Below, in pieces: positions 2-14,232 of a stretch of 30,010 nt of DNA. The translations under genes were made by a program, and so were the position numbers. The notes under the pieces were generated by a model that was not told where the DNA came from, searched no databases, and saw only the letters and a program-made list of their open reading frames with translations. Numbering within the stretch: position 1 is the first letter of the stretch; each line of letters starts with the position of its first letter. The DNA comes from a virus. The stretch lies in the IMG/VR virus record IMGVR_UViG_3300029908_000831, positions 1 to 30,010 of that record, one strand, 5' to 3'.

Positions 2-1057
2 GAGGTGAACGCCTGCATTGGTGCCAACGCAGATCAGGAGGAGCTTGTTGACCAGCCTGAAATGGTGAGGGGAGTAGTTCGCGTGAGCGGGCCATTCACC
101 GTTGAAGCTGTGCAGCCGCCGGAGATGTTCTTGGGAGCCGCAAAGATTATTACTGTGGGCGAGTTCGGCGGTGCTCCCGATGAGATGGAGACCTTCGAGA
201 TGCGCATGGTTGAAACCCGCGCTGACCAAGAGGCACAGAACCTGGATGCCTATCTGGATCAGATGATGCGCTATCTCAAGATGGACGGCGTTCTCTTCCC
301 AAATAACAAGGTCATGCAGTTCCATCGGCTGGAGTCGGTGATGGATGGCAGCGTCATCCACGCCGAGGGACGCTGGGCAAATGGCGATGTGGACAAAGAC
401 CCGGAAGGCAAGGCCAACGTGGGAGTTGTCTTTGGTCCCCAGTACGGACCAATTTCTGCGATGCAGGTCGAAGAAGCAATCCGGCAAGCAAACCGCCGCG
501 GATATGACCATCTCGTGCTGGCGGGCTTCAGCTTTGACGGCACGGCACAAGCGGTCATCGCAGAAGCAACTCATCCCAAGCTGAAAGTACATTCCGCGCA
601 CATCCGCCCGGACGTAAACCCGGCGATGGCCGGATTGTTGAAAGAGCAGCCGGGGAGCCAGTTATTCAGTGTCTTTGGCCAGCCTCGGACCAGGCTTGAC
701 GGCCCTAACGCCGAGGGCGAGTATACGGTGACGATGGAGGGCGTGGACATTTACAACCCAGTCGATAACACTGTGACGCCCACCAAGGCCGACAAGGTGG
801 CGGCTTGGTTTGTGGACGGTGACTACGATGGGCGCACGTTCTGCATTACCCAGGCATTCTTCCCCGACAAGAGCGCGTGGGAGAAACTGAGCAAGGCGCT
901 GGACGGCATTGTGGATGCCGAACGGTTCGAGGCGTTCAGCGGTACTGAGTCCCTGCCGTTCCCACCGGGGAAACACAAGTGTGTTGCTGTGAAGGTGATT
1001 GACCCACGCGGCAACGAAGTGATGCGGATTCACAAACTGGAGGATCGCCGTGGCTGA
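2..1057 (+). CDS. DNA methyltransferase of a restriction-modification system, C-terminal part (partial)
   Basis: The reading frame is open to the left edge, so this is the 3' end of a longer gene; the GTG at 5 is not a convincing start. About 350 residues are visible. The early segment with LVDQPE and GVVRVSGPF resembles the C-terminal half of large site-specific adenine methyltransferases that pair with type III-like restriction helicases. The catalytic motifs (SAM-binding FxGxG and the DPPY-type motif) would lie outside the window, so activity cannot be judged. The stop TGA at 1055-1057 lies inside the start of the next gene (8-base overlap), which shows an operon with the restriction subunit. 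Expected role: methylation of host DNA at the recognition site to protect it. The family call rests on sequence style plus context. Confidence 0.65.
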   Translation, partial: EVNACIGANADQEELVDQPEMVRGVVRVSGPFTVEAVQPPEMFLGAAKIITVGEFGGAPDEMETFEMRMVETRADQEAQNLDAYLDQMMRYLKMDGVLFPNNKVMQFHRLESVMDGSVIHAEGRWANGDVDKDPEGKANVGVVFGPQYGPISAMQVEEAIRQANRRGYDHLVLAGFSFDGTAQAVIAEATHPKLKVHSAHIRPDVNPAMAGLLKEQPGSQLFSVFGQPRTRLDGPNAEGEYTVTMEGVDIYNPVDNTVTPTKADKVAAWFVDGDYDGRTFCITQAFFPDKSAWEKLSKALDGIVDAERFEAFSGTESLPFPPGKHKCVAVKVIDPRGNEVMRIHKLEDRRG

Positions 1058-4000
1058 TAAAACCGGACAGCTTCCGATCCAGCCAGTGAAACGGCCCATT
1101 CTCTGCAGCCCCTACGAGATGCCGGATGCGCACTGGCTTTACAACACCAAGACGGGCGAGCCCAGGGAGAATCCGGGGCGGCGCGACGCCGGTTATTGGT
1201 ACAAGACGGATAAGGTGGGCGGCGCGCAGACAAAAATGTTCGTTGAGGAGGAACGCGACGACATTGAACTGGTGAACGCGCTCCGGAAAGACGTGAATCG
1301 CTGGCGGGACTCCAAGTATCGCGGCGCATCGAATGTCACGAAGGATCTGCTGAACCATTGGGCCAGCAAAGACCGTGGGCGCAGATTATTCTTCTGCCAG
1401 CGAGAGGCCGTCGAGACAATCATTTATCTGGCAGAAATTCGGATACCAGGGCGCACCAGCAGGACACAGTTCAAGGACTTCGCGGTCACGGACGAGGACA
1501 TTCAGCAGCTTCTCAAAGGGGAGCGCCCCGGCTTCTATCAGACTGCAACGGACTACTTCCCGACGCTGGTAGACCCGTCACCGGATGCAAGTATCCTGCC
1601 GCTGCAACGGCTGGGCTGCAAGATGGCGACTGGCTCTGGTAAGACGGTCGTGATGGCGATGCTGATCTCCTGGGCGTTTTGCAATCGCGGCATGAACCCC
1701 AACAGCAAGGAGTTTCCCAACGCCGTGCTGGTAGTGTGTCCGAACCTGACAGTCAAAGAGCGGTTGCAGGTTCTACGGCCAGAGGATGCAAAGAACTATT
1801 ACGCCGAGTTCGACATTGTCCCGGTAAAGTACCGGCCTCTGATGCAAAAGGGAAAGGTATTAGTAACAAACTGGCACCTCTTCAATCCGCAGTCCGAACA
1901 TGAGGAGGGCGGCAAGACATACGCCGTCGTGAACAAGGGACCCGACACACCGGAGACCTTCGCAAGGCACATCCTCGGAGACGATCTTTACAGGCGCATG
2001 CCGATTATGGTGTTGAACGACGAAGGGCACCACTGCTGGCGCCCATTGGCGAACGGCAATGGTGATGAGGCGCAGGCTGGCAACGGCGATGATCTTGAGG
2101 AAGAGGCGGAGGAAGCGAAGGTCTGGGCTGGCGGCTTGGACAAGCTGAATAACTCGAACCCGGAAGGTCCGAAGGCGCGGGGTATCGCGCTATGCGTTGA
2201 CCTGTCGGCCACGCCGTTTTACATCGGCGGCAGCGGCCACCCAGAGGGCCGTCCCTTCCCATGGCTAGTGAGCGACTTCGGCCTTGTGGATGCCATCGAG
2301 AGCGGGATCGTCAAGATTCCGCGTATGCCGGTAATGGACGTGACAGGGCTTCCCGATCCGAAGTATTTCAAGTTGTGGGAGACGATCAGGGGCAGCCTGC
2401 AACCGGCGGATTTCCTGCCAGGCAAGGCCCGTAGGCCAAAGCCTGCCGTGGTGTATCGGGAAGCCGAGGGTGCTTTGCAGCAGCTTGCGGGTCAGTGGAA
2501 GGAGCGCTTCGAGTACGTTGAGCGGGCCACACCCGGCCAGGAGCACGTGCCGCCGGTGATGATTGTCGTCTGCGACAACACGGATATTGCCGAGTTGGTC
2601 TATCAGAAGATCAGCGGCGAAACCCAAGTGGAGCTGGTCACTCAGGCCGACATCGAGGACGAAGACGAAGAAGAATCGCCAGTCAAGGGCAAGAAGAAGC
2701 CCAAAGTAAAGTGGATTACCAGCTACGGCCAGAGCGAGGTACTGCCGCATTTTGAAAACACGGAAAGCCGGAAGCACACCATCCGCATCGACACGAAACT
2801 ACTGGCCGAGGCCGAAAGCGGCGATCCCAAGAAAGGCAAGAAGGACTTTGCCGAGGAGTTACGCCAGGTTGTCGCCACGGTCGGTAAGCCCGGTCAGCCG
2901 GGTGAGCACGTCCGGTGCGTTGTGTCTGTCGGAATGTTGACCGAGGGCTGGGACGCGAACAACGTAACCCACATCCTCGGCATTCGCGCTTTCGGCAGCC
3001 AGCTACTTTGTGAGCAGGTTGTCGGGCGCGGACTGCGCCGCATGGACTATACGCCAACCAAGAACGAACAGGGAAAAGAGCTTCTAACGGAAGAGTACGT
3101 GGACGTATACGGCATTCCTTTCTCGGTGATCCCGTTCAAAGGAAGGCCCGTATCAGCCAGTGCAACAGAGGACAAGCCCAAACAGCACGTGATGGCCCTG
3201 CCGGAGCGCAAGGCTATGGAACTCCAGTTTCCGGTTGTTGAAGGGTATGCGTTTGCACTACGGAAGAATTTGATTAAGTGCGACGTGGCCTCCATGGAGG
3301 AGTTGGTTGTTGAGCCGCACCGGGAGCCAACTGCTACGTTTCTGACCGCCACCGTCGGGTACAAAGAGGGTCACGCGGCTTCTGGCTCGCTAGTGTTGCC
3401 GCTGATCGAGCAGGACCGGCATACGTACTACGAGCAGAACCACATCGAAACGATCAAGTTCAACCTTGCCAGGATCATCGTTGAGTTGCTCTCGGACGCC
3501 TCGCACCAGGGCAGCGACAGGAAGGCTCGCGTCTTCCGGTTGCAGTCCAAGCATCAGCTTTTCCCGCAGGTGTTCTCGGTCGTCGATGAATATGTTCGGA
3601 CCAAGGTCAATTTCCAGAACGAAAATCCGTCCGAGCTTGGCTTGGGAATCTATGTGCAACGGATCATCGAGCGCCTACTGGCGCGGATAGAACCGGACGA
3701 CGAAAGCGGCGAGATGCCGTTGATGCCCGTTCTCAACCGTTACAAGTCAATCGGATCGACTGCGGATGTCGAATTCAAGACGACGAAGCCGTGCTTCGCT
3801 ACGGCAATGAGCCATATCAACCAGGTTGTCGCGGATACTCAGCGGTGGGAACAGAGCGCCGCTTTTCGTCTTGAAATGGCCTCCAAACACGGAATCGTCT
3901 TGTTTTACGCAAAGAACGACCACCTCGATTTGCTGATTCCCTACGAGTACTTCGGGGTCGAGCATAACTATATCCCCGACTATCTCGTAAGGATGGCGAA

Positions 4001-4193
4001 CGGCGTGACCCTGCTTCTGGAGATAAAGGGCCAGGAAGACAATCAGGACAATGCGAAGCACGACTCAGCGCGACGCTGGATTTCTGCCGTCAACAACTGG
4101 GGCAAGCTCGGCACTTGGGACCTCCACGTTTGCCGCAATCCGCAGATGCTGGAGAGAGAGCTACAGTACGTCCTCAGTGGCCGCGCGAAATAG
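1050..4193 (+). CDS. Type III-like restriction endonuclease subunit (DEAD/DEAH helicase plus PD-(D/E)xK nuclease)
   Basis: This 1047-residue protein starts at a GTG overlapping the methyltransferase stop. It shows superfamily 2 helicase motifs in order: Q117 in FFCQREA, Walker A ATGSGKT at 193-199, a DEAH-box variant NDEGHH at 323-328, motif III SATPF at 386-390, EGWD at 632-635 and the arginine-finger motif QVVGRGLRR at 656-664. Near the C terminus IPD977YL followed by LLE991IK993G is a PD-(D/E)xK nuclease core. ATP-driven translocation combined with DNA cleavage is the established role of this Res-type family. The sequence closely matches the style of BPTD_3080-like restriction proteins (from memory, not checked by search). 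All motifs look intact. A Lys/Glu-rich low-complexity linker lies near residues 530-555. The paired methyltransferase lies directly upstream, so the two form one defence operon. Confidence 0.88.
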   Translation: MADKTGQLPIQPVKRPILCSPYEMPDAHWLYNTKTGEPRENPGRRDAGYWYKTDKVGGAQTKMFVEEERDDIELVNALRKDVNRWRDSKYRGASNVTKDLLNHWASKDRGRRLFFCQREAVETIIYLAEIRIPGRTSRTQFKDFAVTDEDIQQLLKGERPGFYQTATDYFPTLVDPSPDASILPLQRLGCKMATGSGKTVVMAMLISWAFCNRGMNPNSKEFPNAVLVVCPNLTVKERLQVLRPEDAKNYYAEFDIVPVKYRPLMQKGKVLVTNWHLFNPQSEHEEGGKTYAVVNKGPDTPETFARHILGDDLYRRMPIMVLNDEGHHCWRPLANGNGDEAQAGNGDDLEEEAEEAKVWAGGLDKLNNSNPEGPKARGIALCVDLSATPFYIGGSGHPEGRPFPWLVSDFGLVDAIESGIVKIPRMPVMDVTGLPDPKYFKLWETIRGSLQPADFLPGKARRPKPAVVYREAEGALQQLAGQWKERFEYVERATPGQEHVPPVMIVVCDNTDIAELVYQKISGETQVELVTQADIEDEDEEESPVKGKKKPKVKWITSYGQSEVLPHFENTESRKHTIRIDTKLLAEAESGDPKKGKKDFAEELRQVVATVGKPGQPGEHVRCVVSVGMLTEGWDANNVTHILGIRAFGSQLLCEQVVGRGLRRMDYTPTKNEQGKELLTEEYVDVYGIPFSVIPFKGRPVSASATEDKPKQHVMALPERKAMELQFPVVEGYAFALRKNLIKCDVASMEELVVEPHREPTATFLTATVGYKEGHAASGSLVLPLIEQDRHTYYEQNHIETIKFNLARIIVELLSDASHQGSDRKARVFRLQSKHQLFPQVFSVVDEYVRTKVNFQNENPSELGLGIYVQRIIERLLARIEPDDESGEMPLMPVLNRYKSIGSTADVEFKTTKPCFATAMSHINQVVADTQRWEQSAAFRLEMASKHGIVLFYAKNDHLDLLIPYEYFGVEHNYIPDYLVRMANGVTLLLEIKGQEDNQDNAKHDSARRWISAVNNWGKLGTWDLHVCRNPQMLERELQYVLSGRAK

Positions 4194-4530: not shown

Positions 4531-4645
4531 GAGCTAATAGCCCTTGCTTGCGGAGAACACGGCGAAAAACGATGTGATAACCGTCACATTCATATCCGGA
4601 CATAAGCGGTTACAATCCGATCCGTATTGCAAAGGGATCGTATTT

Positions 4646-6166
4646 ATGGGTATTCGGAAAATGTTTATAATTGCAAGTAAAGTATTCTGTGCCATTACTG
4701 TTATTCTCTTAATACTCATTATCCAACGGAGCATCATGACCCTGCATATCATTGGAATGATTGCAAATCGGGCACCAGGATTTGATCAATATTTCAGCCT
4801 TATGAACGAGGCGCAGTTCGAGATTCATGAAAGTGCACACTTCCGAAACGGACTCGCACCGGTTCGGATTCATGACAAATATGGATATATTGATAAAACA
4901 GGTCGAGTAATCATCCCTCCTCAATTTCTTGAAGCGGGTAACTTCTCCGATGGAGTTGCATGGGTTTCCTTTGGTAGTATTCAGCGGAACGGCGGTGCTA
5001 ACCTAGGAATTATTGATACAATGGGACATTTAACTCCAACGCCTCAAATAACGACTAATTCATACTTTCTTCTACCTAAACCATTTTCTGAGGGTTTTGC
5101 AGCTTTTACACAGTATAACGAGATGCAAGGCGGTAAAATCCATGACAATGACGCATTGATTGGGTATGTCAATAAGTACGGTACAGTCATTCTTCAACCG
5201 AGTTTTATTAGCGGATGCCCTTTTTCTAGTGGTCTTACGAGTGTAGTATTTGCTGGGAGTCGGGAACAAGCATTAATAGATATAACACTTTTTACACGCA
5301 TTACGTCTGATTATGGATTTTTTGGTTGCTTCTCAGAGGGGTTGCAAGGTGTTGTGCACACAGAAAACGGCAATATGAAAACAGGGTATATAGATCGTCA
5401 TGGTGAGATAATTATACCTTTAAGCGAATCAATTACATATCGAGGAGATTTCTCGGAAGGCCTTGCACCAGCTACAGTCAACGGAGAATGTACATATACA
5501 GATATAAAAGGTGTAATCAGGATACCGCCATTCAAATGCGAATCAAATTACCCTTTCAAAGAAGGTGCTGCCATGATAGAACTTGATAACGGTTTGTTAG
5601 GCTACATCAACAAAATTGGTAATTGGATAATACCTGCTCAGTATGAGAAGGCAGGGGATTTCTCCGAAGGACTGGCACTCGTTGAACGTGGAGGTAAGCA
5701 GGAGTTTATCGATGAGACTGGGAAAACTATTTTAACAACATCAATGATTTCATTGAAAGGACCAGGTATAGATCTAAAACCAGTTGAACATACCACTTCT
5801 CAGACTGTCTCAAACCAGATAAAACAGTTGGATTTGCCGGCTCTCAGTTTCATGATCGGCCAAGATCCTGTTAGTGTAATGGAAAATCCTAACCTTAAGT
5901 TGCGCTTTGAGAAAATATTAGGCCCGTCGTTACCTGATTTCGAAGCTCGATTAGAAATAAGTAGCAATACTGAGAAGAACGGTGATTTGATTGTAGGAAC
6001 AGGACTTATGCCGCACCGCGGAGAATTTGATGACGCTGCGTACGCCATCAATATTCAAACTGGTACTGTATGTGCAGTTATGAGAGTAAATCAGGAAGTG
6101 AAAGTTTTTGGAGTGAACGCGGTTACAGAACTTCCAAAACCACTCACTGACTGGCTTGAACAGTGA
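4646..6166 (+). CDS. WG-repeat protein with N-terminal membrane segment and possible Ivy-like C-terminal domain
   Basis: The ATG at 4646 is preferred over an upstream TTG at 4544, because AAAGGGA lies about 8 bases before it and a hydrophobic segment follows at once. The product has 506 residues. Residues about 7-27 form a membrane anchor or uncleaved signal. Then come about six WG-type repeats of the form GYIDKTGRVIIPPQF...FSDGVAWV, seen for example at GYVNKYG, GYIDRHG, GYINKIG and EFIDETG. The last ~105 residues (from IGQDPVSV) differ: LRFEKILG, GLMPHRGEFDDAAYAIN and LPKPLTDWLEQ recall a widespread domain distantly similar to the lysozyme inhibitor Ivy (PH loop), but without its cysteines. 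That link is tentative. The gene is clearly AT-rich (one hand-counted 60-base line has 22 G/C) beside the GC-rich restriction genes (37 of 60), which suggests separate acquisition. Function unknown. Confidence 0.82.
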   Translation: MGIRKMFIIASKVFCAITVILLILIIQRSIMTLHIIGMIANRAPGFDQYFSLMNEAQFEIHESAHFRNGLAPVRIHDKYGYIDKTGRVIIPPQFLEAGNFSDGVAWVSFGSIQRNGGANLGIIDTMGHLTPTPQITTNSYFLLPKPFSEGFAAFTQYNEMQGGKIHDNDALIGYVNKYGTVILQPSFISGCPFSSGLTSVVFAGSREQALIDITLFTRITSDYGFFGCFSEGLQGVVHTENGNMKTGYIDRHGEIIIPLSESITYRGDFSEGLAPATVNGECTYTDIKGVIRIPPFKCESNYPFKEGAAMIELDNGLLGYINKIGNWIIPAQYEKAGDFSEGLALVERGGKQEFIDETGKTILTTSMISLKGPGIDLKPVEHTTSQTVSNQIKQLDLPALSFMIGQDPVSVMENPNLKLRFEKILGPSLPDFEARLEISSNTEKNGDLIVGTGLMPHRGEFDDAAYAINIQTGTVCAVMRVNQEVKVFGVNAVTELPKPLTDWLEQ

Positions 6167-6378: not shown

Positions 6379-6714
6379 CTACGTCGCTATGCCATAGTTT
6401 GGCTCAACCTCAGCCAGCGTTGCTATCAGTGCCCCCATTGACATTCCGGCTGTCGCTCCCTGACCGGCATACGCAGCTATGATTGCCGAGTTCACCGGAG
6501 TTGGGTCATACAGCAGAGGGCAGACAACTATTCGCGGGTCTTCCTTTGCTGCCGCTATCTGATGCGTGCTGCACAGAACTTGGCAAAGGGCAGAGCCACC
6601 CTCTGCGGGGAATTCTGGGCAGTGCCACCCGTTACCATAAGCAGCAGCTACAGGTGCCATCATTCCTATTTGCTCATCATGAACAAACTGCGAAAACATC
6701 CAACGCGATTGCAT
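6379..6714 (-). CDS. Phage protein of unknown function downstream of the tail tip gene
   Basis: This gene encodes 111 residues. The ATG at 6714 follows the tail tip stop codon by a single base (TAA T... ATG region at 6712-6718), with GGTGAG just upstream, so translation is probably coupled to the tail tip gene. The N-terminal half has four cysteines and a histidine (HCPEF, ALCQVLCSTH, VVCPLL), which suggests disulfides or a metal site. Residues about 74-98 are Ala/Gly-rich and moderately hydrophobic (NSAIIAAYAGQGATAGM), which could be a membrane segment. I do not recognise the family. Its place at the end of the tail module would fit a host-interaction, tail or lysis-associated role, but nothing in the sequence proves one. 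Confidence 0.7.
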   Translation of the reverse strand: MQSRWMFSQFVHDEQIGMMAPVAAAYGNGWHCPEFPAEGGSALCQVLCSTHQIAAAKEDPRIVVCPLLYDPTPVNSAIIAAYAGQGATAGMSMGALIATLAEVEPNYGIAT

Positions 6715-6715
6715 A

Positions 6716-9700
6716 TTAGCTCACCATCATCATGTTGTGTATCAGTAAGTCGCCAATGTAGTAGTTGTGGTCATTGTCAGCACCAGCCTCAACAGTAAGC
6801 AAAACCTTAGTGCCCTTATCCCCATTAAACGTAGCTCCCGGAACCATAAAAGCTGGCATCCACTGACTGTTGTAGTAGACAGATTCACACGGGCTATTCT
6901 TGTGCCCGTCAATGACACGCCACGCATGACAAGTCTCCTTGCGTATGTGGATGACCCGTCTGTATACATCCTCGCCAGTTGAGAATGAGTGACCGAGGAT
7001 GTAGTCGCCCACAACCGCATCATCAGCGGCTATCTTGCCCTTACCCTGCACACACACCAGCTCTTGAGATTCTGGACAACCGCCTCCGCCACCACCACCA
7101 CCAGTACCACCACCGGATGCTGAGGTGGTAATCGTGACTGCTCCGAGTGAGATACATCCATCAGCGGCTGCTTGCAACGCCATCGTTGCATTGGCAACAG
7201 TTGGTGGCGGGTTGCTGTTTGCCGCCATCAGATTGCCCGATGCAACTGGAATATACGGGTATAAGCAGTATGTGGTGGATGAGGTCAACCCTGTATAACT
7301 CAACGATGATGCATTAACCGTCTGTGTACTCCCATCGGCACGCAACAGCGATTGTGCGCTCACTGCCATACCTACTGTAGAGGGCGAACATGAGGTCGTG
7401 TATACCACATTTTGGTTAGGGATGATGCTACCCTGCCCGTTGAGCAGGGTACTCGTACCGTTGCCAACCAGTGCGCCTTGCTCAATAAGTCCGGTTGATG
7501 CGGACACGGTGCCGGGATTAAGGCCGGGAACGGTGAAGGCTACTGCCGTCAATGTTGATAAATCCTGAGCGCAATTGCCAGCCCAATTCACACTTTGAAA
7601 CTTGAAATAGAGAGTCTGACCCGCCCAAGTGGGGTCATACGTGTATTTCAGCACAGCGGAGTCCAGCCGCATGAACAGAGCACCCATCGCGTGAGCACCA
7701 ATGGTGGAACCCATTTGTCCACGACGGAGATACCCGCTCATCGTGAAGGTGTTATTGCCGGTCAGGGCACACGTCGAGTAGCTGATGATTTCTCCATCAA
7801 CAAAGCACATCGTATTATTCGAGTTGGCATCCAGTTCGGTCGCGGACTCCAGCGGGGCGCTGTTGTCAATCAATTCAATAACCAGATTCTGTACTGTGTC
7901 AGGGTCTGGTCCTGTCACCATGGCGGCTGCAAGTGTCCCAAGCCGAGCGGGTGTGCTAATAGTGCCGACCTGCAAGTATTTTGTGCCATCCTGCGAAACC
8001 CATACGTTGCAGGAACCCCAATCGCGCGATTGTCCTGCCGCACCAATCCAGATTTGGTTGCCTTGATACTGGGTCAATCTGCTTGTGGCCTCAAACATCA
8101 CGACTTCGGAGTTGCCGGGTTGTGAGTAGGAATTAAGTAGGGCTGTCCCGGTCGAGATTTCTTTGTTGTAAATCGAAGGCTGATGTACGCCCCAAAGGTA
8201 ATCCTCACACGCGATCTCAAGCCCGTCCTTGGGGTCATCGACAACCTTGGTAATCCGCACCGGCAAAGTTATGATGCCTAGACTGATATTGTTTGAATTC
8301 ACAGCCCACAAAGAAGATGTGGTGATGTTGATAATATCCATCGGCTCAAGGTAGGAGTAATTGTAGGGCACCGAAAACGTGTAAGTGTTCCGAATGTTAA
8401 CCGACCGCTTGACGCGCATCGAGGCTGCAAACGTTGCGGTTGGCAGTGTGGTGATAAAGTCCCAGTCTTGCGGGTCTTCAAGCCTCAGCCCATACCTGTT
8501 AATGGCACCCTGGTCAGATTCTTGCACGATCTCATCTGCATATTGATTCGAGCGATTCTTGAACTGGACCTGTACTTTGTTATTGGCATCCTGCCATGCA
8601 CTACGCTCAATCTTTACCGGGTCTTCACCGTCCTTGGCGATGAAGCAAGTGTCATCAAGAGAAACAATAGACTCCGTGGGAGCAATCCATGTGCAGCCGT
8701 TCCCCGCTGCGCTCGTATCACCGTAGGGGACGAGCTTCATCATCCCCTCAGACATAAAGGCGGCACACATACCAGCCTCAAGCCACTTGCTCATGGTGGA
8801 TGCGGCAGAGTCTTGACTGTCAATGACCGGGGAGATGAAATAGTTCTGAGCAGCGAACCAATTCCATGCCGTGCTATTTGCTGACTGAGTGCCCGCAGTT
8901 GCCGGTGCTCCCCATGTGCCGGATGCGCCGTTATCAATAGTGGAGACGGGGAACGGGACTTGCCCACTTCCTAATCCCCACATGGGGTTGGTTAGCACCG
9001 CCTGGATACAAGTGACGGGGTTACAATCCACAATCCCCCCACCGTAGGAGTAGCCGCCGGTTAAGACTTCAAATACGTTGTCTTGAATCTCTGCGTCTGT
9101 ACCTAAACTCATCGGGGCAAACAACAGATACGCTATACCCGTGTAACCCATTGCCTCGCCGGAGTATAGATATTCGGCGGCTGACTGACCTTGTGTTCCT
9201 TCAAATAGCTCAAAATTCAGCGTCGTGGGGGCTGGGGAGGCAACAGCATTAAGATTCTGGTACGACCAGGTGATGAGGACTTCATTGCCAATGTCACCGG
9301 AGGCAAACTGGTATTCTGGCGCTGACGAGTTGTTTGAGGTGAAGCTATAGGTTCCTGCAAGAGTTGGAGTGCCACTGACAGCAGTCAGTGCCTTACCATC
9401 AAGGCTGTTGCCGTTGTTGTAATATGCGACACCGAAGTCAATCTGTGGTCCGTTGTTGCCACCGGGATAAATGGCATGAGAACTGGTAATGAGATCAGTC
9501 TCCTGAGCCATGAATTGCGTAAGCTGGTATTGGTAGGAGACCTCAAGGGTTTTCCCGATATTGGAGGCGGCGAAGTGGTAGGTATTGCCGACCGACGCGG
9601 CTGATGCGGTTGCAGTCTGAGCGACACCAGCGGCGTTATTGACCGTGATGCTCGTCGCTGTAGACGCAGAGCAGGTAAACGATCCGTTGTTTGCTGCATT

Positions 9701-10375
9701 GGCAAACCCGCTAATCGCAAATGCAAAACCGGCGTAGTTGTTAGACGCACCGCTGGTGTAGGGACTCGTGCCCCCGGTGAAGGTTCCTGTGTATGTGGTG
9801 CTGCCGCCTGATGCTGTGGTGCATGACGTGACGGCGAATGTGCCAATGCTGGCGGGGTTGACCGAGTATTCCCCCGCTGTCAGTGTCGTTCCATAGGGCA
9901 CCAGGATCAGTGGGGAGTAGTTTGTGCCGCCTAAGACGGTCGCAGCCGGGGCACCGTAGTCCGTGTAGCTGCCACTGTACGTCGTGGCGATCCCCACCCC
10001 ATTGTCGGCGAGCAGAGTAGTCGCATACGCTGGCGTATAAACCGAGTATGCCAGCGTAATCGAGTCGCTGCCATATTCATTAGCAAGCCAGGTTTGCCCC
10101 GCCCAAACATTGCCAATGGCCGTTACTGGTCCTGCACAGAGAGCGGTAATAACGTCGGCGGTGTACAGATACTCGTTGTCGCCTTTGCCCCCACCCTTGC
10201 CTCCGCCGCCACTATTGCTCTGCGCCTCGGTGGAGTTCAGCCCATCCAGCCAGATGAGGGATTGCTGTATTTTCTGACAACCAAGGACGACAGGGATGGC
10301 ATACCCCTGCTTGCTTTGGGAGATCCGTACCCCATTGAGTTTGGTGGGGAGATTACTACTGCCAAAGATGCTCAT
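6716..10375 (-). CDS. J-like tail tip (host specificity) protein with C-terminal Hint domain
   Basis: This is a 1219-residue protein. The N terminus (LNGVRISQSKQGYAIPVVLG, then a Gly/Lys linker GGGGKGGGKG at 57-65 and EYLYTADVITALCAGPV) is typical of the tail tip fibre or baseplate hub proteins that end the tail module of lambda-like and GTA-like phages. Residues about 179-263 look like an inserted beta-sandwich module rich in Thr, Ser, Gly and Asn. Central segments (WLEAGMCAAFMSEGMMKLVPYGD, in parts) fit the conserved hub region. After a poly-glycine stretch comes a ~115-residue Hint domain: Cys1100, VGD at 1122-1124, a block-B-like HKNSPCESV region, and the C-terminal pair HN at 1213-1214 followed only by MMMVS. 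The gene lies 2 bases after the NlpC/P60 gene. It would bind the host surface at the tail tip. The Hint domain predicts self-processing. Both assignments are from motifs, not from search. Confidence 0.85.
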   Translation of the reverse strand: MSIFGSSNLPTKLNGVRISQSKQGYAIPVVLGCQKIQQSLIWLDGLNSTEAQSNSGGGGKGGGKGDNEYLYTADVITALCAGPVTAIGNVWAGQTWLANEYGSDSITLAYSVYTPAYATTLLADNGVGIATTYSGSYTDYGAPAATVLGGTNYSPLILVPYGTTLTAGEYSVNPASIGTFAVTSCTTASGGSTTYTGTFTGGTSPYTSGASNNYAGFAFAISGFANAANNGSFTCSASTATSITVNNAAGVAQTATASAASVGNTYHFAASNIGKTLEVSYQYQLTQFMAQETDLITSSHAIYPGGNNGPQIDFGVAYYNNGNSLDGKALTAVSGTPTLAGTYSFTSNNSSAPEYQFASGDIGNEVLITWSYQNLNAVASPAPTTLNFELFEGTQGQSAAEYLYSGEAMGYTGIAYLLFAPMSLGTDAEIQDNVFEVLTGGYSYGGGIVDCNPVTCIQAVLTNPMWGLGSGQVPFPVSTIDNGASGTWGAPATAGTQSANSTAWNWFAAQNYFISPVIDSQDSAASTMSKWLEAGMCAAFMSEGMMKLVPYGDTSAAGNGCTWIAPTESIVSLDDTCFIAKDGEDPVKIERSAWQDANNKVQVQFKNRSNQYADEIVQESDQGAINRYGLRLEDPQDWDFITTLPTATFAASMRVKRSVNIRNTYTFSVPYNYSYLEPMDIINITTSSLWAVNSNNISLGIITLPVRITKVVDDPKDGLEIACEDYLWGVHQPSIYNKEISTGTALLNSYSQPGNSEVVMFEATSRLTQYQGNQIWIGAAGQSRDWGSCNVWVSQDGTKYLQVGTISTPARLGTLAAAMVTGPDPDTVQNLVIELIDNSAPLESATELDANSNNTMCFVDGEIISYSTCALTGNNTFTMSGYLRRGQMGSTIGAHAMGALFMRLDSAVLKYTYDPTWAGQTLYFKFQSVNWAGNCAQDLSTLTAVAFTVPGLNPGTVSASTGLIEQGALVGNGTSTLLNGQGSIIPNQNVVYTTSCSPSTVGMAVSAQSLLRADGSTQTVNASSLSYTGLTSSTTYCLYPYIPVASGNLMAANSNPPPTVANATMALQAAADGCISLGAVTITTSASGGGTGGGGGGGGCPESQELVCVQGKGKIAADDAVVGDYILGHSFSTGEDVYRRVIHIRKETCHAWRVIDGHKNSPCESVYYNSQWMPAFMVPGATFNGDKGTKVLLTVEAGADNDHNYYIGDLLIHNMMMVS

Positions 10376-11898: not shown

Positions 11899-14232
11899 TT
11901 AATTCGGATTCCCAATGACAAGCACTTGCCACGTGAGCGAGTTTGTCGCGGCGGCGGTCACTACGGCATTATTGCTGGATACGGCGCAGTAGACGCCGGT
12001 TGTGTTGTTAGTAGTCGCTTGCACAAAGCAGAGCGGCGTACTGCTGTAGCTATGCTGGAGAGATACCGTGCAGGTGGACGTGCTGGACATGGAACACTTT
12101 CCGGCAAAGTCGCCTGTTGCCGCCTGATTAAGATGGTTGGTAACTGCAAGACTGTTGGCGACGGTGGCGCTGCCATTGCTGCTCACAGTAAATGCCGGGG
12201 TGCTATAGTTCGCGCCGCCCTCGTATACGACGAAGCCGCCCGTGCCCGCTGTCGAGTGGTTGTTGATGACGACTGAGGATGTTCCCTGGCTGTCGATCTC
12301 GGTGCCTCCATTCGTGTAGGCAATGAAGGGCGACATGGGAGTGGTAGCGTTGGCGTTGCGAAGTTGGCAACCGGTTAGGCTCTGGCATTCCCACTGCCAC
12401 GTCTCGGTTGAGCCGCTATAGAAATTCAACTGGCCCCACTGCGAGGTATTTCCGCTCGAATCTATGAAGTAGATTTCAGATGGTGTCGTGCCGCCGCTGT
12501 CAATAACCACACCGCCGGTTCCTGAGTTGGCAGAGCCGTTGATTACCACCGCGCCCGTGCCAGCAGAGTTGAGAACGGTCTGATTGTTCGTGCTGCCCGT
12601 GGTTGCGATCTCGGCAACCGCATTCGGCGCAGTGACCTGGTTCGACGCCGTCCACGTCACGGTTGGCTGCGAGGTGTAACTCGCTCCGCCAGCCGTCATC
12701 GTCACGCTTGAAACCGTCCATCCGCCAGAGCAGCTCGAAGCGGCCATGACCGCCGTGCCCGCCGCGCTGCTGCCGCCGCCCCCAGTGAAGACAATGGTCG
12801 GCGGCGTGGACGAGGAGTAGCAGCCGCCATTGTTCAGGATCACGTTTGTTACGACTCCGGCAGTGGGGCTGAGATATTGGCCAACCGAGATACGGTTGAT
12901 GTTGTTGAGCAGGTCCTGCACATACCAGATCTGCTGGCCCGCCGTTCCATCGCTCAAGCCTTCAACCCAGCGATAGCCGTAGTCGGTCTGGTATTCCGTA
13001 ACGCGCCCGCGCTCGTTGCCCAGGCCTATGCCGAGGCGCTGGTGATCGGTGACCGTCGCATCCTGCTGGCTCCCGTACCAGTCGCCCTTTATTCCATTCA
13101 CGGTACGATGAAATGAGTCCCAGAATGAGTTGCGGCTTCCGTTGTCGATCAGGTCACCAGTGAAGAGTGTCCCGCCTGTCGCCACGTAGTTATAGCTTGA
13201 TCCAGAATCGGCCTGATACTGGATCGTAGAGTTCTCGTTACGCAAACCGTTGATGGTGTTGTTAACGGCGTTCGCGCCGAGGTGGACCATAGTCGAGCAA
13301 CCCTCAACGTCGCCACCCGTCCATGTGTTTCCGTCACCGTAGACTACATTGATTCCATAGGTTCCAGCGATGGGATTGCCGCCGCTCGTGGGGCAGACGA
13401 TGTGCGTCTTGACGAAAGTGCTGGCATTAGCGAAGCTGCCAGCTGGACTCGTATTTCCGGTCAGATACCATCCTGTTCCAAAACCGTTCATCACTATGTC
13501 GATGAAAGTTCCGCCCGCGTAGTTTCCGCCGCCATCCAGCGTGATTCCAATTTGGCCGGCACTCTGATTTCCATTCAGATAAAGATTGTCCAGCCGTATT
13601 TCCTGCGTCCGGTAGAAGTACATCGCTTGCGCCGCGCTGCCTGCGCTGGCAGTGTTGATGTTCACGTTCTGCATCCAAAAGCCGTTTGTGTTCGCCGCAT
13701 AGGTGGGATCGCCAATCTGGAAAGCGTTGCCGCTCCCGGTGTAGACCCAGACAGTACCTCCAGCCGCGCCATTGGCGTTCGAGCCGCCCTGGTAGGTGCA
13801 TCCCTCAATGCGGACATTGCGAACGCCAACGGGAACGATAAACTGGTACGCAGACGTGAGCGTTGCGCAGGGAAGGTAGACAAGGACATTCGGGGTTGAC
13901 AGGGTAACGGTTTCGGAAATCGTCAATGCACCCGTGGAACTTCTGCCATCGCAAACGCCGCCATAGGTGGAACTCTGCGCGACTACGCAATTCATCAGCT
14001 TTGCGCCAAAGTCCGCTCCGGGGAATGAGGCGATAGAAGCAACCAGTCCGCCTACTGAAACCGAAACCGAGCCTGATACATTCACGGGATTGGAGTTGTC
14101 ATGCTGCCAAATAACATTCACACTGCCAGATGGAGCGGCTGGAGTGGTATTGGAAAAGTTCACCCCCGGAGTCTGCGCTTGTATTCCAGCCGCGAGTAAT
14201 GCAACACAACAAATAACAAATGCCTTATACAT
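11899..14232 (-). CDS. Secreted parallel beta-helix protein inserted in the tail module
   Basis: This 777-residue protein begins with a clear signal peptide: Lys3, a hydrophobic run FVICCVALLAA, and a cleavage site after GIQA. Residues about 60-400 alternate short beta strands with Asn, Gly and Ser turns (for example GGTVWVYTGSGNAFQIG and IRLDNLYLNG), as in pectate-lyase-like parallel beta-helices used by polysaccharide depolymerases and tail spikes. A middle block (NNGGCYSSSTPPTIVF ... GGASYTSQPTVTW) and two copies of a VVIN...TGGFVV-like repeat follow. The last ~70 residues (CSMSSTSTCTVSLQHSYSS ... WQVLVIGNPN) form a Cys-containing end domain. GGTGG lies about 8 bases before the ATG. The gene separates two normally adjacent tail genes and looks more GC-rich than the tail tip gene. 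It is either a receptor-binding depolymerase or a secreted morphogenetic/conversion protein. I see no catalytic motif. Confidence 0.72.
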   Translation of the reverse strand: MYKAFVICCVALLAAGIQAQTPGVNFSNTTPAAPSGSVNVIWQHDNSNPVNVSGSVSVSVGGLVASIASFPGADFGAKLMNCVVAQSSTYGGVCDGRSSTGALTISETVTLSTPNVLVYLPCATLTSAYQFIVPVGVRNVRIEGCTYQGGSNANGAAGGTVWVYTGSGNAFQIGDPTYAANTNGFWMQNVNINTASAGSAAQAMYFYRTQEIRLDNLYLNGNQSAGQIGITLDGGGNYAGGTFIDIVMNGFGTGWYLTGNTSPAGSFANASTFVKTHIVCPTSGGNPIAGTYGINVVYGDGNTWTGGDVEGCSTMVHLGANAVNNTINGLRNENSTIQYQADSGSSYNYVATGGTLFTGDLIDNGSRNSFWDSFHRTVNGIKGDWYGSQQDATVTDHQRLGIGLGNERGRVTEYQTDYGYRWVEGLSDGTAGQQIWYVQDLLNNINRISVGQYLSPTAGVVTNVILNNGGCYSSSTPPTIVFTGGGGSSAAGTAVMAASSCSGGWTVSSVTMTAGGASYTSQPTVTWTASNQVTAPNAVAEIATTGSTNNQTVLNSAGTGAVVINGSANSGTGGVVIDSGGTTPSEIYFIDSSGNTSQWGQLNFYSGSTETWQWECQSLTGCQLRNANATTPMSPFIAYTNGGTEIDSQGTSSVVINNHSTAGTGGFVVYEGGANYSTPAFTVSSNGSATVANSLAVTNHLNQAATGDFAGKCSMSSTSTCTVSLQHSYSSTPLCFVQATTNNTTGVYCAVSSNNAVVTAAATNSLTWQVLVIGNPN

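Follow-up and report, generated by a model that had tools for sequence, protein, structure and literature searches.

An S-x-x-E Hint domain and an adjacent partner gene form a cassette at the C-terminus of unrelated phage tail proteins, with possible self-processing of the tail tip

The window (the whole stretch of 30,010 nt analyzed here, a 30-kb IMG/VR record) encodes on the minus strand a tail protein of 1219 aa (6716..10375), which is similar to the GTA "megatron", or Rcc01698-like, proteins (phage-tail_3, PHROG 1101). This carrier ORF matches PF13550 (E 2.1e-18) and PF23666 (E 1e-12) in Pfam and the tail protein family PHROG 1101 (E 1.5e-60), and its match to the NCBIfam megatron model NF048004 (E 6.7e-34) is under the cut-off. 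The genes upstream of the carrier have Pfam matches to DUF2460, the BR0599 hub and NlpC/P60, in an order that we take to resemble that of GTA-type tails; both features of the GTA megatron/Rcc01698, the combination of Phage-tail_3 with Rcc01698_C and the location downstream of the hub and NlpC/P60 genes, are found in the carrier. The protein bodies of the carriers resemble GTA megatron/Rcc01698 and lambda-J-type tail proteins, but the megatron/Rcc01698 families match the body only, up to approximately residue 970 of 1219, and the Hint end lies outside. A 777-aa protein with a weak PHROG 460 match and no relatives in Pfam is encoded between the DUF2460 and BR0599 hub genes (11899-14232, minus strand). 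On the opposite strand, past the tail genes, there are genes for a WG-repeat protein (4544-6166, plus strand) and a type III restriction (ResIII) helicase-like protein (1050-4193, plus strand), possibly cargo or, in the case of a prophage, host DNA beyond its boundary.

The C-terminal part of the carrier comprises a beta-rich pre-Hint domain (STLLNGQGSI...TTSASGGG, 7106..7453, minus strand), identified by alignment and common to all three carrier types described below, then the Gly-rich linker GGGTGGGGGGGG (7079..7114, minus strand), a feature of all 18 members of the family, and the Hint domain itself, Cys1100-Ser1219, that is, the last 120 residues (6719..7078, minus strand; stop codon 6716-6718). 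With the coordinates checked by translation, the protein ends as GGGTGGGGGGGG-C1100PESQELVCVQGKGKIAADDAVVGDYILG...SPCE...HNYYIGDLLIHN-MMMVS-stop, so that Cys1100, VGDYILG and the terminal HNYYIGDLLIHN, the landmarks named in the first-pass annotation of this DNA, are all in place. The partner gene, encoding 111 aa, starts 1 nt past the Hint stop codon (6379..6714, minus strand).

The same annotation had assigned the terminal ~120 residues to the Hint superfamily, and structure prediction bears this out. The AlphaFold2 model of the domain, built with 18 homologues, has the Hint fold with pLDDT 92.5 and pTM 0.85 (a model from only 3 sequences, with pLDDT 38, was not used). The best Foldseek match in PDB is BIL2 of the Tetrahymena BUBL1 locus (E 6.6e-5, TM 0.79), and ranks 1-43 are all Hint-superfamily structures (inteins, BIL, hedgehog or Vint), among them the Clostridium BIL, the DnaB, gp41-1 and DnaX inteins, Vint 8r2c and hedgehog 1at0; in BFVD the matches are phage proteins named Hint. 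Compared by hhalign with the canonical Hints that terminate six phage tail or virion proteins, the domain scores Prob 95.3 and E 2e-8, values that refer to one profile-profile comparison and not to a database search. Moreover, one member of the family (L036) matches Pfam Vint (Hint) over residues 2-104, beginning at Cys1, with E 0.0012, under the curated cut-off. The Hint segment alone is not recognized as a member of any family in Pfam, PHROGs or NCBIfam, hence its homology rests on fold and profile comparison; judged by the predicted fold and these profiles, the Hint identification of Cys1100-Ser1219 is secure. Weak sequence matches to the PDB entries IsdH and CsoR are due to chance, as they disappear with the 18-sequence profile.

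The homologous domains, 18 in number and one of them identical to that of the window, were collected from IMG/VR by successive alignment and motif scans; the sample contains only 18 distinct sequences on 19 contigs. These are uncultivated IMG/VR contigs, with the possible exception of L038 (record 2522125054_000003), which has an isolate-like record number. Scans of bacterial genomes and searches of phage isolates and plasmids revealed no member of the subfamily outside IMG/VR, and a further viral scan produced no additional members; the rules for the terminal Ser/Cys and the partner given below rest on the same sample.

With pairwise identity down to 35%, 18 of the 120 positions are invariant across the 18 domains, and all five canonical active-site positions (C1, B:7, B:10, G:6, G:7) fall within this set (hypergeometric P 4.5e-5), thus the active site is the conserved part of the domain. 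In particular, Cys1 (Cys1100, 7076..7078, minus strand), the candidate N-terminal nucleophile, is invariant in 18/18 domains and has conservation rank 2 of 120, and the His1213-Asn1214 pair (6734..6739, minus strand), the penultimate His (G:6) and the terminal Asn (G:7) of block G, is equally invariant (18/18, ranks 3 and 8 of 120). In block F (HNYY, 6758..6769, minus strand) the His in position F:13 varies in the family alignment (H/Q/A/C) and the next Asn is invariant; no acidic residue in position F:4 is conserved among the 18 domains, though this position depends on the alignment. Purifying selection acts on the Hint domain as well as on the partner, with dN/dS of 0.05-0.22 where it could be calculated.

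The active site deviates from the canonical one in block B, where T-x-x-H, typical of catalytic Hints, is replaced by S-P-C-E (6884..6895, minus strand), with Ser1161 in position B:7 and Glu1164 in B:10; in the hhalign comparison SPCE stands opposite THEH of the canonical phage Hints. Ser, Pro and Glu are invariant (18/18) and Cys is present in 17 of the 18 domains, and its replacement by Thr in L040 indicates that Glu, and not Cys, is the constant element. A review names His in position B:10 as the best-conserved residue of inteins and knows of only two exceptions, a pseudogene and Tko CDC21-1, the latter of which still reacts, using Lys58 outside the motifs (PMC4031507). The block-B His is essential in many inteins, where its loss blocks the N-S shift, but it can be compensated by bulky residues in position -1, while in Ssp DnaB, with Gly in position -1, the loss is fatal (PMC6333167). 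The window protein has Gly in position -1 of Cys1. By analogy, Tko CDC21-1 and the bulky -1 compensation can serve as precedents for a Hint reaction without the block-B His. If the domain is active, it would share with Tko CDC21-1, a class 1 intein, the activation of Cys1 without His in B:10; unlike that intein, which employs Lys outside the motifs (PMC4031507), it has an invariant Glu in B:10 and no C-extein. No description of a family-wide invariant Glu in B:10 was found in the open-access literature.

The beta-fold (AlphaFold2, Foldseek) and Cys in position 1 (18/18) place the domain in the Hint superfamily. Splicing inteins have a C-terminal His-Asn with Cys, Ser or Thr in position +1 and a C-extein; in our family HN is present, but the residue in +1 is not constant and what would be the "extein" comprises no more than 5-8 residues. 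Class 3 inteins (W-C-T, with Cys in F:4) were rejected, since Cys1 is present and there is no conserved Cys in the F:4 region. BIL domains (Clostridium thermocellum 2lwy; Tetrahymena BUBL1 BIL2 6tmm) are the closest solved folds (E 6.6e-5 to 4e-4, TM 0.68-0.79), and by both sequence and fold the domain shares with them the absence of a homing endonuclease and of an obligatory +1 nucleophile. However, sequence identity to them is 13-15%, the carrier and partner arrangement is different, the domain profile has no sequence match to 2lwy, and BIL domains keep the block-B His, in the position where Glu is found here. Vint and hedgehog (Hog) proteins are likewise fold matches, with a self-cleaving Hint in a terminal location. 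Hedgehog has a Thr/His block B and a sterol-binding region, as opposed to the S/E block B, terminal HN pair and partner gene in our family; the protein stops 5 residues past HN, leaving no residues for a sterol-recognition region. The PT-HINT pretoxin module, with a C-terminal toxin domain after Hint in the same ORF, was rejected, since no domain at all follows HN in any of the 18 proteins and the domain has no PT-HINT match.

The carriers form three groups, nine of them being megatron-like, seven J-like (PHROG 5616 and 31), and two belonging to a third type (L040, with PA14/GLEYA domains, and L029). In blastp comparisons, the C-terminal pre-Hint beta region is the only substantial similarity between the three groups, and when this domain is used alone as a query, every relative found is upstream of a Hint. 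The partner is the immediate downstream gene in all 18 Hint loci, encoding ~110 aa and beginning 0-36 nt downstream of the Hint gene. It has no match in Pfam, PHROG or PDB, and its alignment contains no invariant Cys, Ser or Lys. An IMG/VR search with the partner alone retrieved 16 loci, all 16 on contigs carrying a Hint tail protein. When loci are compared within carrier groups, the identity of the Hints follows that of the partners (Spearman rho 0.81) and is not correlated with that of the carriers (rho -0.04). The window and L030 have Hints that are 75% identical on unrelated carriers, whereas the window and L042 have carriers that are 68% identical with Hints only 45% identical. Adjacency alone could explain the co-movement, but the gene past the partner is not conserved (similarity between loci was found in 3 of 105 pairs, compared to 147 of 153 pairs for the partner), and the cassette therefore ends sharply. 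Hence Hint and partner move as one cassette, independently of the carrier. In both carriers of the third type the gene after the partner is acetyltransferase-like (GNAT-looking). That the Hint domain of this soil phage travels with its partner between unrelated tail proteins points to a mobile accessory module, by which the tail tip would be processed or equipped.

As the favored explanation we infer, with moderate confidence, that the S-x-x-E Hint domain, representing a new subfamily, is catalytic and would process its own tail-tip carrier into the products given below, with the partner as a dedicated accessory. Acting on its own carrier, the reaction would be single-turnover. The peptide bond that follows the Gly-rich linker would be converted to a thioester of Cys1100, with the help of Ser1161 and Glu1164 (standing in for Thr and His), and water or another nucleophile would then resolve this thioester. 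The mature tail protein would then end at the Gly linker, with the Hint part released, and the short tail at the C-terminus may be freed as well, through cyclization at the conserved His-Asn. The partner of ~110 aa may be a regulator, chaperone or acceptor of the Hint domain; an accessory role is proposed on the basis of the joint inheritance of the two, in a single cassette, on unrelated tail proteins, and catalysis because the active-site positions are selectively invariant.

Still, the replacement of the block-B His by Glu in all members counts against a straightforward hedgehog-like reaction, and the conserved Hint residues could be structural rather than catalytic. The main rival to self-processing, less likely but quite possible, is that the Hint fold is catalytically dead and functions in docking or capping at the tail tip. 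The cassette (pre-Hint, Hint and partner) would then be exchanged as a module for receptor binding or assembly, with the partner bound to the Hint domain non-covalently. It would account for the altered block B and the variable F:13, and the strict pairing with a separate protein, the swapping of carriers and the movement of the pre-Hint beta domain along with Hint are all consistent with it, the first two being typical of docking modules. However, Cys1, the penultimate His and the terminal Asn stay invariant down to 35-45% identity with no obvious structural need, while a dead domain would be expected to lose at least one of them.

The tail after His-Asn (MMMVS in the window protein, 6719..6733, minus strand) is relevant to another explanation. 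The first-pass annotation had stated that no Cys, Ser or Thr follows HN; this holds for position +1, occupied by Met in the window protein, which nevertheless ends in Ser (+5). All members of the family terminate in Ser (11/18) or Cys (7/18), located at +5 to +8 from HN, with other tail residues varying. With the +1 nucleophile absent, classical splicing is indeed not expected, as that annotation had concluded. Splicing or acyl transfer of a different kind is unlikely; in this scheme the C-terminal Ser/Cys, or an amine of the partner, would attack the thioester of Cys1, and the tail or the partner would become covalently joined to the mature tail protein. The conservation of the terminal Ser/Cys in 18/18 members with tails of 5-8 residues speaks for it. 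So does the codon usage: the terminal codon in L002 is TCA compared to AGC, TGC and TGT in the others, which indicates that in part of the family, at least, it is the amino acid that is constrained. Ligation by BIL domains is also possible with no nucleophile in position +1 (Aranko et al. 2013, as cited in PMC4031507). On the other hand, the nucleophile is at +5 to +8 rather than +1, the partner lacks an invariant Cys, Ser or Lys, and the Ser/Cys state changes only once on the tree, implying long conservation within two groups and not repeated exchange. Moreover, where the gap is 0-2 nt, the terminal AGC may double as part of the Shine-Dalgarno sequence of the partner, an origin excluded for TCA (L002, 36 nt gap) and for the members with TGC or TGT. 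The Cys-ending proteins form one clade (-SPC, -NPC, -LPC, -PAC, -RLC; L036, L037, L038, L039, L040, L042, L043). Slightly less probable again is a portable attachment device, in which the Hint thioester would move any fused tail protein onto the terminal Ser/Cys peptide or the partner; if true, phages would possess a swappable, covalently fitted tail-tip piece.

Finally, a decayed intein or BIL relic, drifting after loss of the C-extein, is very improbable: the diverged active site and the absence of a C-extein past 5-8 residues fit it, but the domain is found on 19 contigs, on carriers of three types, and its partner is conserved; an inactive relic was rejected on account of strong purifying selection and the invariant active-site positions, including the nucleophile and Asn.

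The first-pass annotation had considered that the processing of a receptor-binding phage protein by such a domain would be notable, a claim weakened by the fact that C-terminal Hints on phage tail proteins are already known and annotated: canonical Y3-like ones are present on tail or virion proteins in 55 phage records, one of them annotated "contains intein domain". Erwinia phage Y3 gp110 (with the annotation "contains intein domain"), Yersinia fHe-Yen9-02, Alcaligenes Afa-NA1 and phage NCTB have Hint at the extreme C-terminus of a tail or virion protein, starting with Cys1 and ending with LVHN and a few residues; the NCTB domain matches the BIL structure 2lwy by sequence. Unlike our family, the canonical Hints mostly keep T-x-x-H in block B (5 of the 6 aligned), have ~20-30 extra residues and no terminal Ser/Cys, and are found on other carriers (collagen-like in Y3) with other downstream genes. 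New in the present family are its active site (S-x-x-E), the Ser/Cys with which every member ends, and the mobility of the Hint and partner cassette, found on three kinds of tail protein. No paper on the function of Hints terminating tail proteins was found in the open-access literature. If self-processing does occur, this would be a natural family-wide Hint using Glu for the block-B His, directly testing how B:10 activates the scissile bond, and autocatalytic processing with a dedicated partner would add to the mechanisms of tail-tip protein maturation and exchange in phages. If, instead, the domain is inert, the strict cassette on unrelated tail proteins still represents a new kind of module, located at the end with which phages of uncultivated hosts recognize those hosts.

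Several loci with other Hints were observed as well. In L004 (4981-6417), L060, L061 and L063 (Erwinia, Yersinia and Alcaligenes phages) the canonical Hint, C1...T-x-E-H-P...LVHN with ~10-15 aa after it, is followed by two small tail-fibre genes, and in L061 and L063 "large intein domain" genes are located near the Hint tail or virion proteins. A separate phage tail ORF in L013 (13586-14189), with collagen-like repeats (GPQGPKGQKG), contains an internal Hint-like domain ending in HNYFVGDLLVHN-T, with TSVD rather than TxxH in block B and no Cys in position 1.
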